DNA from: a virus
DNA length: 36,659 nucleotides
IMG/VR virus record: IMGVR_UViG_3300042923_001335
Location: 1-36,659 of that record
Reading direction: 5' to 3' (one strand)
Shown: one piece after another, positions 10,426 to 33,012 of the stretch
Layout: each line of letters opens with the position of its first letter
Position numbering within the stretch: position 1 is the stretch's first letter
Position numbers and translations under genes: made by a program
Notes under the pieces: model-generated
What the model was told of the DNA's origin: nothing
Database searches by the model: none
What the model saw: the letters and a program-made list of their open reading frames with translations, nothing else

Positions 10426-11196
10426 TCAGACCCCGCGCGTGTACGTGTACGCGGCAGACGGGCCGACGGCGTTCGTGACGACGACCGGCACGTCACCCGC
10501 GGCGCCGACGGGCAGGATCGCGACGATCGTCGCGTCACCGAGGACCTCGAAATCGACGACCGCGGTGCCACCGACGGTGACCTCGGTCGCGCCGACGAAC
10601 CCGACACCGGTGAGGGTGACGAGCTCGCCCTCACCGGCACCCGACGGGGTGACACCCTGGATGACCGGTGCAGACGCGTCCCACCCGGCGAACGGGTTCG
10701 CGATCTCCGTGTACGGGCCCTTCCCCGTGAGCGTGAAGTTCAGGGCCTCCACCGTGCCGTCGGGGCCGATGTTCGCGCGCGCCGGCGCGACCGTCGCCAG
10801 GCCCTGGCCGGCGTCGGACGGGTTCGGGGTGCCCACCTCGGGCTTGTGGTACCAACGGACCTCGATGACGGCGGCCTCGCCCTTCGCAGACGGCCGGGTG
10901 CGAGCGAGGAGCGCCTCCACCTCGGCGAGGTACAGGCCGGTCGCCAGGGACCGGTTGACCTGGATCTGGAACGCGAGCGTCCACGACCAGCCCGCGACGT
11001 CGCTGTTCTGCGCGCCGAAGTCGTCGTACGTCTGGGCGTTCTGGTTGTTCGGGGTCGGGGTGGGCTGGAAGTTGCTGATGCGGCGGCACGACTGCCACAC
11101 CTTCGACGCGAGGGTGCCGAGGTTGACGTCGAGGCCGTACTCGTACGACTTGCCGAGCGTGGTGCCGGCGGGCAGTGCGGGAGGGGTGGGGCTCAC
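10426..11196 (-). CDS. major tail tube protein with C-terminal TIG/IPT Ig-like domain
   Basis: In this 256-aa protein, residues 1-165 form the tube-protein core with alternating beta strands (WSWTLAFQIQVNRS). Residues about 176-252 match an IPT/TIG immunoglobulin-like fold (APVIQGVTPSGA...VTLTGVGF...VTVGG). Surface Ig-like domains are common on tail tube and capsid proteins and are thought to bind carbohydrate on cells. It starts at GTG 11196 behind GGAGG. The gene follows the tail terminator and precedes the chaperones, the standard order. Confidence 0.9.
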   Translation of the reverse strand: MSPTPPALPAGTTLGKSYEYGLDVNLGTLASKVWQSCRRISNFQPTPTPNNQNAQTYDDFGAQNSDVAGWSWTLAFQIQVNRSLATGLYLAEVEALLARTRPSAKGEAAVIEVRWYHKPEVGTPNPSDAGQGLATVAPARANIGPDGTVEALNFTLTGKGPYTEIANPFAGWDASAPVIQGVTPSGAGEGELVTLTGVGFVGATEVTVGGTAVVDFEVLGDATIVAILPVGAAGDVPVVVTNAVGPSAAYTYTRGV

Positions 11197-11612
11197 GGTG
11201 ATGCCTCCGTGTTGTCGAGGATGATCTGGTAGGAGTCCGCCCGCTCCTGGCGGGTGGTCTCGTCGGCGCCCAGGCGGGCCACCACGGCGCGTGTGACGAG
11301 CGCCAAGCCAGCGATTCGGGCCAGGCCATGGAGCGCGGTGAACGCTGAGCTGGCGAGGACGTCGGCGCCGTTGGGTGCACCCCGGGGGCCACGGAAACGC
11401 AGCTGGACACGGCGCGAGTGCACGCCGACAGGGTGCGGGTCGTCGGCGTAGTAGAGGGTGACGCCGACGGCCTGGTCGGGCTGGTCTCCGATCGGGCCGT
11501 AGAAGATCCCGACCTCACCGGTCGCGTAGGCGGGTCCGGCGGGTCGCCAGGACCAGCCGGTCCTCGCCGCGAGCTGCTCACAGATCGTCGTCACGAGCAC
11601 GTCGTCATCCAC
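11193..11612 (-). CDS. tail terminator / head-tail joining protein
   Basis: This 139-aa protein starts at GTG 11612 with AGGAGGTGA just upstream; its stop overlaps the major tail gene (GTGA). It has an alpha/beta pattern with an aromatic early segment (TGWSWRPAGPAYATGEVGIFYG) and the motif RRVQLRFRGPRG, consistent with small tail terminator proteins that cap the tube and dock it to the head. The position just before the major tail gene supports this. A 467-bp gap holding a plus-strand lipoprotein gene separates it from the neck genes upstream. Confidence 0.7.
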   Translation of the reverse strand: MDDDVLVTTICEQLAARTGWSWRPAGPAYATGEVGIFYGPIGDQPDQAVGVTLYYADDPHPVGVHSRRVQLRFRGPRGAPNGADVLASSAFTALHGLARIAGLALVTRAVVARLGADETTRQERADSYQIILDNTEASP

Positions 11613-11657: not shown

Positions 11658-11897
11658 ATGACCAGGAAGAGGACGCTGCTCGTCGTGTTCGCAGTACTTC
11701 TCGCCGGCGCCGGCTGCTCGTCGACAGACCATGAGCCGGAGCGTTCCCCGGCCGAGCAAGTCGAGTACGACTGCACCGCGGAGGCCCTGACGAAGTTCGG
11801 GTCGATCGCGAACGAGGACACCGACCGGATTGCCTACACCGAGTTCTACGACGAGTGCGTTCAGGACGGGCTCGCGGCGCTCGACGAGTCGTCGTGA
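11658..11897 (+). CDS. small lipoprotein, probable moron
   Basis: This 79-aa protein starts with Met-Thr-Arg-Lys-Arg, a hydrophobic h-region (about residues 6-16) and a lipobox LAGAGC with the acylated Cys at about residue 20. The mature ~60 residues are acidic, with two further cysteines that could form a disulfide. It sits alone on the plus strand within the minus-strand structural operon, with its own leaderless promoter, the hallmark of a moron expressed from the lysogen. Prophage lipoproteins often exclude related phages at the surface. Here that is a hypothesis only. Confidence 0.75.
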   Translation: MTRKRTLLVVFAVLLAGAGCSSTDHEPERSPAEQVEYDCTAEALTKFGSIANEDTDRIAYTEFYDECVQDGLAALDESS

Positions 11898-12076
11898 CAC
11901 ATCGTGCGGCGCGTTTCCGCAGGTGGTGACAGGTGACAGGTGAAGTGCAGCCGCTCGCCACACGCACACACGTACACACGCGCGTTGGGGAAGAACTCAG
12001 AAGTCCTGTCACACCTGTCACATGTGTCCTGACCAGCGCAAACACCGTGACGGGTCCGGAATGTCCCTGTCACCAC
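11861..12076 (-). CDS. possible Cys-rich zinc-ribbon ORF over a repeat cluster
   Basis: This is a 71-aa open frame from GTG 12076, in the same frame as the neck gene that stops at 12080, so stop-codon readthrough would also reach it. It contains CDRCDRTSEFF, VYVCACGERLHFTCH and a late MCH, a plausible zinc-binding Cys/His set. Several Cys-His codon pairs come directly from the TGTCAC repeats, so the pattern may be a by-product of the DNA repeats. It overlaps the 3' end of the lipoprotein gene by 37 nt and has no clear ribosome-binding site. It is listed as uncertain. Confidence 0.25.
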   Translation of the reverse strand: MVTGTFRTRHGVCAGQDTCDRCDRTSEFFPNARVYVCACGERLHFTCHLSPPAETRRTMCHDDSSSAASPS

Positions 12077-12083
12077 GTGTCAC
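11894..12083. repeat. TGTCAC/GTGACA repeat cluster A
   Basis: Seven exact copies of TGTCAC or its complement occur in 190 bp, at 11894, 11926, 11933, 12007, 12016, 12068 and 12078, many extended to cctgtcac. The block at 12004-12021 (18 bp) is identical to 23938-23955 in cluster B, and gtgacacatcgtg at 11894-11906 recurs at 24179-24191. The cluster fills most of the gap between tail and neck genes. It could be an iteron-like replication or regulator binding array. Confidence 0.8.
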
Positions 12084-12421
12084 GTGCCCAGGTGCCGGCG
12101 CAGTGCACCGGCCATGATCTGTTCGATCTCGCCGACGGACTCGAGCGCGGCGGACTCGAGGTACTTCGCCTGCCCGTCGTCGTGCCGCAGCGACAGGTCT
12201 TCGTGCTGACGCACCGCGTACGGCAGGTCCGACACGACCGCGGACTCGAGGTCGCCTTCGGTCGCTGGGACGACCGTGAGCGAGGACCGCAGGTCGCCGT
12301 ACTCGAGCGGGGTGCGCGGCACCGCGACGGCGCGCACACGCTCCGCTGACAGGTTCAGGCCGTCGACGGCGGCCGCGCGCACCGCAGCGACGAGCGCGGC
12401 AGTGTCCATGCTCTCGGTCAC
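12080..12421 (-). CDS. neck protein (HK97 gp10-like minor capsid/tail completion)
   Basis: This 113-aa protein starts at GTG 12421, overlapping the upstream stop (GTGA). Residues 30-90 (AVPRTPLEYGDLRSSLTV, YAVRQHEDL, GQAKYLESA) match the pattern of gp10-type neck proteins, in which a small domain made from a split beta sheet ends in a conserved YA.xQHE and KYLE motif. These proteins seal the head-tail interface. The gene sits between the head-closure gene and the tail genes, as expected. Confidence 0.75.
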   Translation of the reverse strand: MTESMDTAALVAAVRAAAVDGLNLSAERVRAVAVPRTPLEYGDLRSSLTVVPATEGDLESAVVSDLPYAVRQHEDLSLRHDDGQAKYLESAALESVGEIEQIMAGALRRHLGT

Positions 12422-12735
12422 GTGAGAGCCACCTCCACGCCCCGCAGGTCCGGGTCGTCGGCGTGGTGCACGCTCGTCGTGATCACCGTCCGCACCGAGC
12501 CGTCCGGGAGCGTCGCCTGCGAGCCCGGGGGAGCGACCGTGCCGGGGTCGGCGTACAGGGTCGCGGACGACACGACCTCGACGGCGTCCGGGCCGCGCAC
12601 GAGCCGCGTGGACTCGTCGAGCAGGACCTGCACGGCGGCGGGCGGGCCGTAGATGTCGCCCATGCCGCCCGAGCCGAGCAGAGGCCGGATGGTGACGGTC
12701 TGGTCCTGCCAGTCGCCCCACGGGTCGGTGCTCAT
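12418..12735 (-). CDS. head closure / minor capsid connector protein
   Basis: This 105-aa protein starts at ATG 12735, overlapping the upstream stop (ATGA). It is beta-rich with a Gly-rich early loop (GSGGMGDIYGPP) and a late conserved-looking DDPDLRGVEV. Size, position and the four-base overlaps on both sides fit the head-closure (stopper) protein of siphovirus necks. No signature is certain. Confidence 0.6.
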   Translation of the reverse strand: MSTDPWGDWQDQTVTIRPLLGSGGMGDIYGPPAAVQVLLDESTRLVRGPDAVEVVSSATLYADPGTVAPPGSQATLPDGSVRTVITTSVHHADDPDLRGVEVALT

Positions 12736-23689: not shown

Positions 23690-24120
23690 GGGCGTCGCGC
23701 CGCTTCGATGAGGAGTGCAGCGACCTCGCGACGGCGCGCGTTCCGGCGGACCGAGGAGCTGGGCCAGCCGTGGGCGAGCGACGCGCGCAGGTAGTCGAAC
23801 GCGGCTTCCATGAGCGCGTCGTCGGTATCGACGTTCGCGAAGCGCTCGATCCAGTGCGGGTCGCGTTCGTGACGGATGAGCTCTTCGACTGGTCGGATGC
23901 TCTCGCCTGCCCGCACGTGATGTGTTGATGCGGATTCTCCTGTCACACCTGTCACGGGGGCTCCTTTGGTCGAGTCGAATTCGTCTGTCACATGTGTCAC
24001 GACCTGCGGCGACGCACGGCGGGTGGTGTCACGGCGGGGCGGTGACAGTTCCGCGCGGGCATGTGTCACGCGTGACAGGTGATGTGTCACGGGTTCTGAC
24101 GTTCGGGGCCGGTGCGTCAC
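23686..24120 (-). CDS. hypothetical protein encoded over repeat cluster B
   Basis: This 144-aa protein starts at GTG 24120, overlapping the primase TAG by one base, with GAGGG upstream. The N-terminal ~75 residues contain repeated Val-Thr-His and Val-Thr-Gly units (VTH, VTHHL, RVTH, VVTHVT, VTGVTG) because the GTGACA repeats are read in frame. This part looks disordered. The C-terminal half (residues 78-144) is a normal helical domain (IRPVEELIRHERDPHWIERFANV...). The gene may simply host a DNA array, or the repeats may matter to the protein. The role is likely in replication, by position. Confidence 0.65.
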   Translation of the reverse strand: MTHRPRTSEPVTHHLSRVTHARAELSPPRRDTTRRASPQVVTHVTDEFDSTKGAPVTGVTGESASTHHVRAGESIRPVEELIRHERDPHWIERFANVDTDDALMEAAFDYLRASLAHGWPSSSVRRNARRREVAALLIEAARRP

Positions 24121-24184
24121 TACCAGCCCTCGCGGTCGTCGAGGGCGCCCTGCTCGGTGACGGATGCGTCGTCGTCGGGTGACA
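23941..24184. repeat. TGTCAC/GTGACA repeat cluster B
   Basis: Ten copies occur in 244 bp, at 23941, 23950, 23986, 23995, 24027, 24042, 24064, 24072, 24085 and 24179. The 18-bp block at 23938-23955 is identical to 12004-12021, and TGTCACATGTGTC (23986-23998) also occurs at 12016-12028. Several copies form head-to-head pairs around CATG or GCG. The array lies just after the primase gene, a usual spot for a phage replication origin. An iteron role is inferred, not shown. Confidence 0.8.
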
Positions 24185-26657
24185 CATCGTGGAGGCGGAT
24201 GCCGGCGTAGTAGCGGGCGGTGTTGGACCTCGTGGAGCGGACGCCGAACTTCGCGGCGAGCTGCTGCGTGAACGTCTTCGCGGTGACGGGCGTCTCGTCC
24301 TCGACGCGGCACCAGGTCTCGTATGCGGCGCGGACGGCGGCGACCTTGGCCTGCAGGTGCTGGGCGTTGACGTCCCCGGTCTCGCACCGGTCTTCGACGA
24401 ACCGTGCGACGGTGTCGGTGTCGCGCTCGTACGCGTCGGTGGCGGCGAGGACGGACGCCGGGGTGTCGAGGCCGTGCGCGAAGTAGCCGGCGGCGCCGCG
24501 CACGAGCCACGCGAGGATCGCGGGGCCCTCTTCGTCGACGAGGCGGTCCTCGAGGTCGGGGACGCGCTGCTCCGGGGGGACGGTGTGCTCGAACCCGAGC
24601 ATGCGGACGCGGCGCCAGAACGCGGGGCCGCCGGAGCGGACGGCGGGCTGGTGGTTCGCGAGGAGCCACAGCGAGTGGGTCGGGGTGAAGGAGAACCAGT
24701 CCTTGCCCATGAACCGGCCGCTGATCGTGTCCTTGCCGGTGAGCATCTTGACCTTGGCCTCGGCGAACGCCTGCCCGTCCTCGAGCTCCGAGGTGAACAC
24801 GAGGCGGGCGCCGGCGAGGCGTGCGATCTCGGTGGGGTGCGCGGCGTTGCGGGTCGCGAGGAGCAGCTCGGCGGGGGCGTTGAGGGAGTACCCGTCGTCG
24901 CCGACGCCGACGATGCGCTGCACGGTCCCGGCGAGGGTCGTCTTGCCGTTCGCGCCGACGCCGTGCGCGAACGGGAGCAGCTGCTCGAGGATGACGCCGA
25001 CGAGGGAGACGCCGAAGAGGCGCTGCACGTACGTCGTCATGGCGGGGTCGCCGGCGAACGTGTCGGCGAGGAACTTGTCCCACCTCGGGTGGGGGGCGTT
25101 CATGTCGGGGGCGACGGTGGTGGTGCGGGTGTGCAGGGCTGCGGGGTCGGGTGCGGTGAGGGTGCCGGTGCGGAGGTTGATGACGCCGGCGGGGGTGTTG
25201 AGCTCGTAGGGGCGGGCGTCGAGGTCGCGCAGGTGGGTGACGGTGCGGCGGTCGGAGCGGGCGAGGGCGACCATGGATTCGATGCCGCGCTTGGACAGGG
25301 AGGCGCGCTTGTGCCGGTCGGCCTGCTTGTCGTCGTCGGGCAGGTCGCGGGCGATCGATCGGGCGAGTTCGGTGACGTGCCCGGCGTCGTCCCAGCGCCA
25401 GCGTGCGCCGTCCCACGTGACCCAGGCGGAGCGCTGCGGGACGTACCGGACGGTGTCGTGGTGGGCGTCGACGAGGCGCAGGGCGTTGCCGTCGTCGGTC
25501 TCGGTGTAGCTGGTGGGTTCGACGACGTGCAGGTGGGGACGCGGCGTGGGCTGGGGCGCGGGGGCGAGGGCGGTGGCGCCGTCGGTGGGCGGGATGAGCC
25601 CGTGGAGGTCGCCGCCGGGGGGTGGGCCGTCGGGGAGGGCGCGTTCGCGGGGTGCGGTGGCGCGCTGCCCGAACCCGCGGTCGTGCAGGGCCTTGGCGGC
25701 GGCGGCGTGGTCCCCGCTGTGCTCGAGGACGGCGAGGGCGCCGAGCTTCGTGTACGGCACCTCCTGCTCGAACTCGGTGCTCGAGGTGAAGACGTAGAGG
25801 CGGTCGCGGTCGTCGGCGTGCCCGGTGGACGCGGAGAAGCCGTGCGTCTTGCCCGGGCGGGTCCACAGCCGCGTGCGCCCGCGCGTGGTGGCGAGCGTCC
25901 ACCCGTGCGGGGTGAGGATCTCGGCCCAGTCGGTGCGGTTCTCGTAGTCGTCGCCGGGGGTGATGCCGGCGGTCGGGTCGTGCGGGGTGACGGGCGCGCT
26001 CGCCGTGGTCTCCGCCGCGGGATCCTGGGCGTCGAGGGTGCGCAGGAGGGCGTGGAACGCGTCGCGCTCGTCGCGGGTGAGCACCGGGGCGGTGGTGGGT
26101 CCGCCGACGAGCCGCACCCAGGGCTGCCCGCTGGGGTGGTGGGTGCCGGGGGTGGGGGAGACGACGACGTACCCGCCTTCGCCGCGGGTCTCGGCGAGCA
26201 CCTGGACGCGCGCGCCGGGGGCCGCCTCGAGCTCCTCGGGGGTGGACGGGCGGCGCGCGAGCTTCGTGTTCCCCGGCACGGTGTCGTCGTCGGTGAGGCG
26301 GTAGTGCCAGTGGAACCCGCCGGAGGGGGAGCGTTCGACCCACCCGTTGCCGAGCCGGGCCCAGAGGTCGCCGAGGCCGGTGTCGTTCGCGAGCTGGGCG
26401 AGGTCGGGCAGGTGGTCGACGGCGCGGCCTTCGAGCTCGACGAGCTCGGCGCGCCCGGAGACGGCGCCCTGGACGACGGCGATCCCGTGGTGGAGGCCGC
26501 CGCCGAACCAGGTGCGCACCTGCGCCTCGTCCGCGCGCTGCGTGATGTAGGGCTTCCACATGACCGCCGGGGCCTTGGAGCCGTCGGGACGGATGGGGAG
26601 GACGGAGTAGCCGGCGGCGTGGAGCTCGAGCGCGGCGGCGAGGATCTCGGCGGTCAC
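24120..26657 (-). CDS. bifunctional prim-pol / D5-type SF3 helicase
   Basis: This 845-aa protein starts at GTG 26657 with GAAGGGCGG upstream. The N-terminal third has the prim-pol layout: GYSVLPIRPDGSKAP (residues ~16-30), GIAVVQGAVSG and the metal site region AELVELEGRAVD (~70-81), which reads E-x-E where many relatives have D-x-D. The centre has the D5_N region. The C-terminal third has an SF3-type Walker A GVGANGKTTL (about residue 565) and later Walker B-like VFTSELEDGQ. It combines primer synthesis and origin helicase work, as in P4-type replicases. It is the core of phage replication. Confidence 0.88.
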   Translation of the reverse strand: MTAEILAAALELHAAGYSVLPIRPDGSKAPAVMWKPYITQRADEAQVRTWFGGGLHHGIAVVQGAVSGRAELVELEGRAVDHLPDLAQLANDTGLGDLWARLGNGWVERSPSGGFHWHYRLTDDDTVPGNTKLARRPSTPEELEAAPGARVQVLAETRGEGGYVVVSPTPGTHHPSGQPWVRLVGGPTTAPVLTRDERDAFHALLRTLDAQDPAAETTASAPVTPHDPTAGITPGDDYENRTDWAEILTPHGWTLATTRGRTRLWTRPGKTHGFSASTGHADDRDRLYVFTSSTEFEQEVPYTKLGALAVLEHSGDHAAAAKALHDRGFGQRATAPRERALPDGPPPGGDLHGLIPPTDGATALAPAPQPTPRPHLHVVEPTSYTETDDGNALRLVDAHHDTVRYVPQRSAWVTWDGARWRWDDAGHVTELARSIARDLPDDDKQADRHKRASLSKRGIESMVALARSDRRTVTHLRDLDARPYELNTPAGVINLRTGTLTAPDPAALHTRTTTVAPDMNAPHPRWDKFLADTFAGDPAMTTYVQRLFGVSLVGVILEQLLPFAHGVGANGKTTLAGTVQRIVGVGDDGYSLNAPAELLLATRNAAHPTEIARLAGARLVFTSELEDGQAFAEAKVKMLTGKDTISGRFMGKDWFSFTPTHSLWLLANHQPAVRSGGPAFWRRVRMLGFEHTVPPEQRVPDLEDRLVDEEGPAILAWLVRGAAGYFAHGLDTPASVLAATDAYERDTDTVARFVEDRCETGDVNAQHLQAKVAAVRAAYETWCRVEDETPVTAKTFTQQLAAKFGVRSTRSNTARYYAGIRLHDVSPDDDASVTEQGALDDREGW

Positions 26658-32637: not shown

Positions 32638-32907
32638 TCAGGCGATCGCCAGTTGCGCAGCGGGTGAGGCACCGCTTGTCACAGCGGGCATCGAGACATG
32701 CTCGCGAGCCTCGAAGAGGTCCTCCCACGGGACGTCGAGGCGGGCCGCGATCGCGAGGGCGAAGTCCTCCTCGATGTTGCGGAGCTTGCCGTTTTCGATC
32801 TGCCAGATCGCCGCCTGCGAGCGGCGCGTGAGGAACGCGAGGTCGCGCTGCGAGAAGTGGCGCTGCACACGCCAGCGCTTGATCTTCGCGGGGTCCCGGA
32901 CGTGCAT
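32638..32907 (-). CDS. Cro-like XRE helix-turn-helix protein
   Basis: This 89-aa protein starts at ATG 32907 because AAGGAGGT lies 4 nt upstream; longer frames to 32991 lack such a site. Residues 10-60 are a typical XRE/lambda-Cro HTH (KIKRWRVQRHFSQRDLAFLTRRSQAAIWQIENGK). It is the first gene of the minus-strand early operon, right below the promoter and operators at 32965-33020. It most likely represses the plus-strand repressor gene and so sets the lytic switch. Confidence 0.85.
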   Translation of the reverse strand: MHVRDPAKIKRWRVQRHFSQRDLAFLTRRSQAAIWQIENGKLRNIEEDFALAIAARLDVPWEDLFEAREHVSMPAVTSGASPAAQLAIA

Positions 32908-32964
32908 CCAGACCTCCTTGCGGGTGCGGGGTGGGCGCTTACGAGTCCTCATCATGCTCTCCAA

Positions 32965-32979
32965 TCGTCGTGCTGACAA
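32965..32979 (-). promoter_or_regulatory. operator copy 1
   Basis: Read on the minus strand this is TTGTCAGCACGACGA, matching operator 2 in 13 of 15 positions. It is a near palindrome (TTGTC, five bases, GAC-AA like). It sits just downstream of the early promoter -10 at 32984-32989, so a bound repressor would block transcription. The two operator centres are 41 bp apart, close to four helical turns. Confidence 0.6.
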
Positions 32980-32983
32980 GTAG

Positions 32984-33012
32984 ATGATCACCCACTATCC
33001 AGAGGTTGTCAA
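32984..33012 (-). promoter_or_regulatory. early (lytic) promoter TTGACA, 17 bp, GATCAT
   Basis: On the minus strand a perfect -35 TTGACA (33007-33012) and a -10-like GATCAT (32984-32989) are 17 bp apart. It faces the Cro-like gene. Operator 2 overlaps the -35 and operator 1 lies at the start region, as expected for the main lytic promoter. Confidence 0.65.

Follow-up and report, generated by a model that had tools for sequence, protein, structure and literature searches.

The two dense TGTCAC clusters of this virus genome, array A and array B, are read here as iteron arrays whose strongly predicted reader is a single protein, the primase-polymerase (prim-pol) with an SF3 helicase, and we consider it likely that they jointly form a split replication origin of the P4 type. 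Array B starts within the prim-pol gene, at its last codons, and runs on 3′ of it. With slightly less assurance, we also think it probable that a one-residue rule governs the sites: wing residue 838 of the protein would set the last base of the iteron (Asn, Lys, Arg or Gly going with C; Met, Pro or Ala with T), residue 827 would be tied to the base before GTCA, a residue change would rewrite whole arrays, including one 12 kb off, and origins as well as phage incompatibility would be predictable from the protein.

Two clusters of TGTCAC and their setting

The window, that is the whole stretch of DNA analysed, is a virus record of 36.7 kb and 72% GC, with nearly all genes on the minus strand. 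TGTCAC occurs 20 times on both strands together, where 18.1 copies are expected, and 17 of the 20, in mixed orientation, form two dense clusters, with 7 in array A and 10 in array B; the remaining 3 are scattered. Among 300 genomes simulated by a first-order Markov model with the window's composition, the count within 190 bp never exceeded 3. Moreover, the −log10 p corrected over all hexamers was 12.7 for array A and 14.5 for array B; the same score stayed at or below 9.9 across 40 simulated genomes and, outside the two arrays, reached at most 6.2 in the real window. An earlier note made from the letters of this DNA had counted seven exact hexamers in 190 bp, where about 0.1 was expected by chance, and had noticed two blocks common to both clusters, all of which was borne out: the seven copies are all within array A, the calculated expectation is about 0.09, the 18-bp block TCCTGTCACACCTGTCAC has identical copies at 12004-12021 and 23938-23955 and no third one in the record, and the second block is an exact 13-mer, GTGACACATCGTG, at 11894-11906 and 24179-24191.

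Array A lies about 12 kb from array B among head-tail connector genes and is almost entirely intergenic, with the lipoprotein-like ORF and the neck/minor head-like gene as its neighbours (Table 1). A promoter and terminator scan around it found none, and an Rfam search gave no match. Searching the DNA against known phages returned no match for positions 1-25000, and short matches of 74-83% only for 11660-36659.

Table 1. Positions of the arrays, their parts and the genes discussed
Feature	Position	Strand	Remarks
Head-tail connector gene	11193-11612		adjoins array A neighbourhood
Lipoprotein-like ORF, 79 aa	11658-11897	+	stop codon inside first array A iteron; no PHROG match
Array A	11894-12083		7 TGTCAC iterons, three minus followed by four plus; sequence count and simulation
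Array A iteron starts	11894, 11926, 11933	-	
Array A iteron starts	12007, 12016, 12068, 12078	+	
Array A spacer	11939-12006		separates the two iteron sets; GC 62%, as against 72% for the genome; also in relatives' complete B arrays
Alternating purine-pyrimidine tract	11959-11984		in array A spacer
TTCTGAGTTC	11993-12002	-	in array A spacer
Neck/minor head-like gene	12080-12430	-	PHROG 556 and 5; overlaps last array A iteron
ORF, 76 aa	23686-23916	-	no PHROG match; in the place of the right half of relatives' B module
Array B	23941-24184		10 TGTCAC iterons, mixed orientation; prim-pol last codons and region 3′ of the gene
Primase-polymerase / D5-type SF3 helicase with C-terminal winged helix	24120-26735	-	871 aa; D5_N 2.3e-34; PHROG DNA polymerase/primase; structure model
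Asn838 codon	24222-24224	-	tracks iteron last base (N: GTCAC; M: GTCAT)
Ala827 codon	24255-24257	-	in presumed recognition helix; associated with base before GTCA
Repressor-like gene	32638-32991		
Integrase	35088-36332		

Residue 838 and the last base of the iteron

The prim-pol of G044, the nearest of the relatives with Met838, is 91% identical to that of the window, and 9 of the 10 aligned B sites read TGTCAT in place of TGTCAC, with the other core positions unchanged at 49 of 50; the background rate of that change is 47/337. Its array A holds five TGTCAT and no TGTCAC. Within the helix-turn-helix segment, the replacement of Asn838 by Met is the sole change unseen in TGTCAC relatives, and Met838 also occurs in two further TGTCAT phages, which a DNA scan had picked out without reference to the protein. 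Since both arrays of this Met838 relative are TGTCAT, one protein probably reads A and B, and the C-terminal winged helix of the prim-pol is most likely the part that would read the iterons, as far as sequence can indicate.

The same correspondence was found in a wider sample of 83 distinct homologues, 40 of which had a clear GTCA-core array and were used for the residue-base test. Residue 838 was N (17), G (5), R (3), K (3) or S (1) where the arrays were GTCAC, and M (6), P (3), A (1) or T (1) where they were GTCAT, so that under the main setting this column split the two kinds completely among the 40 (z 10.1, and 4.6 for the runner-up column). It kept its first rank in five alternative settings, in which a few homologues carrying Ser, Thr, Lys or Asn were mixed or exceptional. 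In a tree from which the C-terminal domain was left out, the iteron base switches 8 times, and all 7 independent contrasts conform to the residue class (p 0.016), the classes having been grouped post hoc except for Asn and Met, whose contrast consists of 3 independent pairs. In the column test on the homologues, the base preceding GTCA was associated with residues 773 and 827.

An AlphaFold2 model places residue 827 in a helix at 819-830 and residue 838 in the hairpin after it, which fits a winged helix; a single-sequence model of the C-terminal domain was discarded for poor quality. From these positions in the modelled winged helix, both residues may contact the DNA. No description of TGTCAC arrays or of the residue-base rule was found in the openly searchable literature, subscription papers being outside the search, and the rule, like the second array in a tailed phage, appears to be new.

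The putative origin module in relatives and in known replicons

We scanned end to end 15 prim-pol phage genomes, the window plus 14 relatives, a number of which are fragments, with their pieces joined. In all 15 the prim-pol gene has a GTCA-type array at its 3′ end, and five (the window, G044, G050, G047 and G104) have a second one; scanned lengthwise, the other 10 of the 15 showed no second array. In G044 and G050 it lies within the same gene neighbourhood as array A, making three phages altogether, although by an eye reading of the sequence that of G044 is on the opposite side of the neck gene relative to the window. In G047 (L008:1918-2206) TGTCAC and CGTCAC sites stand beside a serine integrase gene, in the same module as A. 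The kind of array agrees between A and B in the window, G044 and G047, while the second arrays of G050 and G104 are mixed: the former has 5 TGTCAT and 3 TGTCAC though its protein has Asn838, and is not a clean match to its B, and the latter has no clean match to its own B array either.

The module common to the aligned A and complete B arrays runs from minus iterons through TTCTGAGTTC and the alternating purine-pyrimidine tract to plus iterons. Array B of the window is without the right half, spacer and right-hand iterons together, and the 76-aa ORF is found there instead. Judged by this alignment, array A is a second copy of the putative origin module and the only complete copy in the window.

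Initiator iterons and a two-site origin are of an already known kind. In P4 (X51522) the initiator alpha is an SF3 helicase with D5_N and a C-terminal winged helix, as is the window prim-pol, and hhalign relates the prim-pol family to alpha with a probability of 96.9 spanning the helicase and the C-terminal domain. Type-1 repeats in mixed orientation lie at crr directly 3′ of alpha and again at ori about 5 kb off, which is the arrangement of B and A in the window. Nevertheless, the arrays of the window are 12 kb apart, its repeat is TGTCAC rather than TGTTCACC, and it has the head and tail genes of a tailed phage, whereas P4 is a satellite. Alpha also has a zinc-ribbon/Toprim primase, unlike the AEP-type prim-pol of the window: Toprim matched alpha and gave no match in the window protein, and AEP Prim-Pol was found in the homologues L137 and L424.

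For SaPIs and other PICIs it is established that the iteron origin adjoins the 3′ end of the primase-helicase gene (PMC6092414), a placement that array B shares, and the SaPI5 helicase structure (PDB 7ola/7om0) superposes on our model with Z 29.8 over 388 residues (rmsd 4.0) across the helicase and C-terminal domain. The PICI origin is, however, a single site at which two sets of iterons enclose an AT-rich stretch, whereas the window has two sites 12 kb apart, of which B is without the right-hand set and A has the two-set layout around a spacer of 62% GC. The D5-type helicase Cch2 of SCCmec binds, through its C-terminal domain, direct repeats just downstream of its own gene, a putative origin (PMC7581432), yet it differs from the window in having three AAGTG iterons at one site and a separate primase-polymerase. 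In the archaeal plasmid pRN1, ORF904 joins a primase-polymerase, an SF3 helicase and a winged helix. The pRN1 origin likewise lies just beyond the 3′ end of the gene, but it is a 100-nt stem-loop without iterons, and stem-loops have been proposed for prim-pol replicons (PMC4234260); in the window, iterons would carry the specificity.

A mechanism drawn from P4 alpha, SaPI Rep and Cch2 probably applies. The C-terminal domain of prim-pol would bind the TGTCAC sites, helicase rings would assemble on the inverted iteron sets, and the spacer would be melted open, with priming by the same protein. Array B would stand in the place of the P4 crr, and array A would be the likelier opening site because it is the only complete module in the window, B having lost half. 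We infer all of this, that is the binding, the ring assembly, the opening, the array that fires and the need for both arrays. That array A serves as an origin in its own right, or as an element which replication requires, seems to us only a little more probable than the opposite, and caution on its role is called for since 10 of the 15 genomes are without a second array and those of G050 and G104 are mixed; in general, a second array missing from so many genomes would be dispensable.

Among the alternatives, the one most to be reckoned with, although we hold it to be unlikely, is that array B alone is the origin, as in SaPIs and PICIs, and that A is a secondary initiator array, perhaps a decoy or handcuffing site limiting initiation, a remnant left by module exchange or a place from which bound initiator affects transcription in the head-tail region. 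The gene-end array being the sole one in 10 of the 15 genomes speaks for it, as do the differing places of the second arrays (connector genes, or a serine integrase in G047), their mismatches in G050 and G104, and the origins directly 3′ of the initiator gene in SaPIs and PICIs (PMC6092414, PMC7581432). What speaks against it is that A retains both the spacer and the right-hand iterons which complete B arrays have and the window B does not, that A keeps its neighbourhood in three phages, and that it switched along with B in G044.

The earlier note had inferred that both arrays bind the same protein, which the joint change of both G044 arrays with residue 838 supports at the level of sequence, and had offered initiator iterons, stoperators and partition sites as options; covariation and the established families argue for the first of these. 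Stoperators or operators, at which a phage repressor would silence transcription at several places, are very improbable here. Stoperators typically consist of short sites repeated at several places, and a repressor-like gene is present, but 17 of the 20 sites are packed into two clusters with both orientations mixed rather than being dispersed in one orientation relative to transcription, one array is constantly 3′ of the helicase gene, and the site sequence covaries with a helicase residue. We give no more credit to centromere-like partition sites, for which no positive evidence came up: such sites typically have repeat arrays, yet the integrase suggests an integrating phage, a partition protein was not found among the subset of genes scanned, and the covarying partner is the helicase. 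As for chance or coding-sequence bias, the probability is practically negligible. Some TGTCAC runs in high-GC phage loci (L022, L061) do resemble coding for VTP/VTG protein repeats, but the simulated genomes refute chance statistically, and the almost wholly intergenic position of A and sites that are conserved in place and change in concert also speak against this reading.

The split P4-like origin read by prim-pol, if correct, has wider use. As far as the literature found goes, the origin is unmapped in most phages with this common replication module, and a position conserved on the 3′ side of the helicase gene, together with an iteron-predicting residue, would allow origins to be called from sequence. 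Moreover, a second full origin module amid head-tail genes raises the question of P4-like two-site control in ordinary tailed phages.

Hexamer arrays in other loci

A scan with TGTCACACCTGTCAC gave at least 118 usable loci, at least 43 of which have dense TGTCAC arrays, at a GC content of 0.42-0.72. Among the matches listed, arrays were formed by TGTCAC in 43 of 118, by TGTCAT in 18 of 120, by the control GTCTAC in 10 of 120 and by the reversed CACTGT in 2 of 51. Thus TGTCAC is a frequent iteron choice and not a unique one; the idea that it is the sole iteron word was rejected, GTCTAC and TGTCAT forming arrays too. When ten large proteins beside TGTCAC arrays were compared with PHROGs, nine had matches among several primase and helicase families, and the tenth matched a DNA polymerase. 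The sequences compared in this analysis suggest that it is common in phages for iterons to lie 3′ of the helicase gene. D5_N as the common partner of TGTCAC clusters was likewise rejected (2 of 43 cluster records vs 0 of 50 without a cluster): in other cluster records a VapE-like, DUF5906, DUF927, AAA_25 plus Toprim or DUF3987 protein lies beside the array, or in one case a gene for DNA polymerase A.

The loci L021, L024, L026, L035, L045, L052, L080, L083, L094 and L107, at 42-72% GC, each have a dense TGTCAC array on the 3′ side of a replicative helicase or primase, the proteins belonging to different Pfam families. Dense GTCTAC arrays of mixed orientation occur in L209, L220, L226, L237, L308 and L313, several of them directly 3′ of large ORFs, and hexamer arrays of such a kind seem to be common with many different words. 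Six homologues (L477, L484, L496, L139, L140 and L149) have other top gene-end hexamers (GGGTAC, AGTGCC, TGCCAC, TGTGCC, ATGTCC and TTGGGA) and would be useful for widening a recognition code.

In Bordetella phage BPP-1 (L441:1500-2400), TGTCAC was not found 3′ of the primase; the 900 bp there contain six copies of GAGGCA, which may form an iteron array in the place for which a stem-loop origin had been proposed. In Luteimicrobium album (L449, L450 and L451) apparently the same prim-pol region is present three times in one 4.2-Mb contig, perhaps through repeated prophages or an assembly effect. Finally, Lactobacillus phage phiadh has its annotated replication origin (L143:4343-4728) directly 3′ of the primase gene ORF771, which fits the rule of placement.
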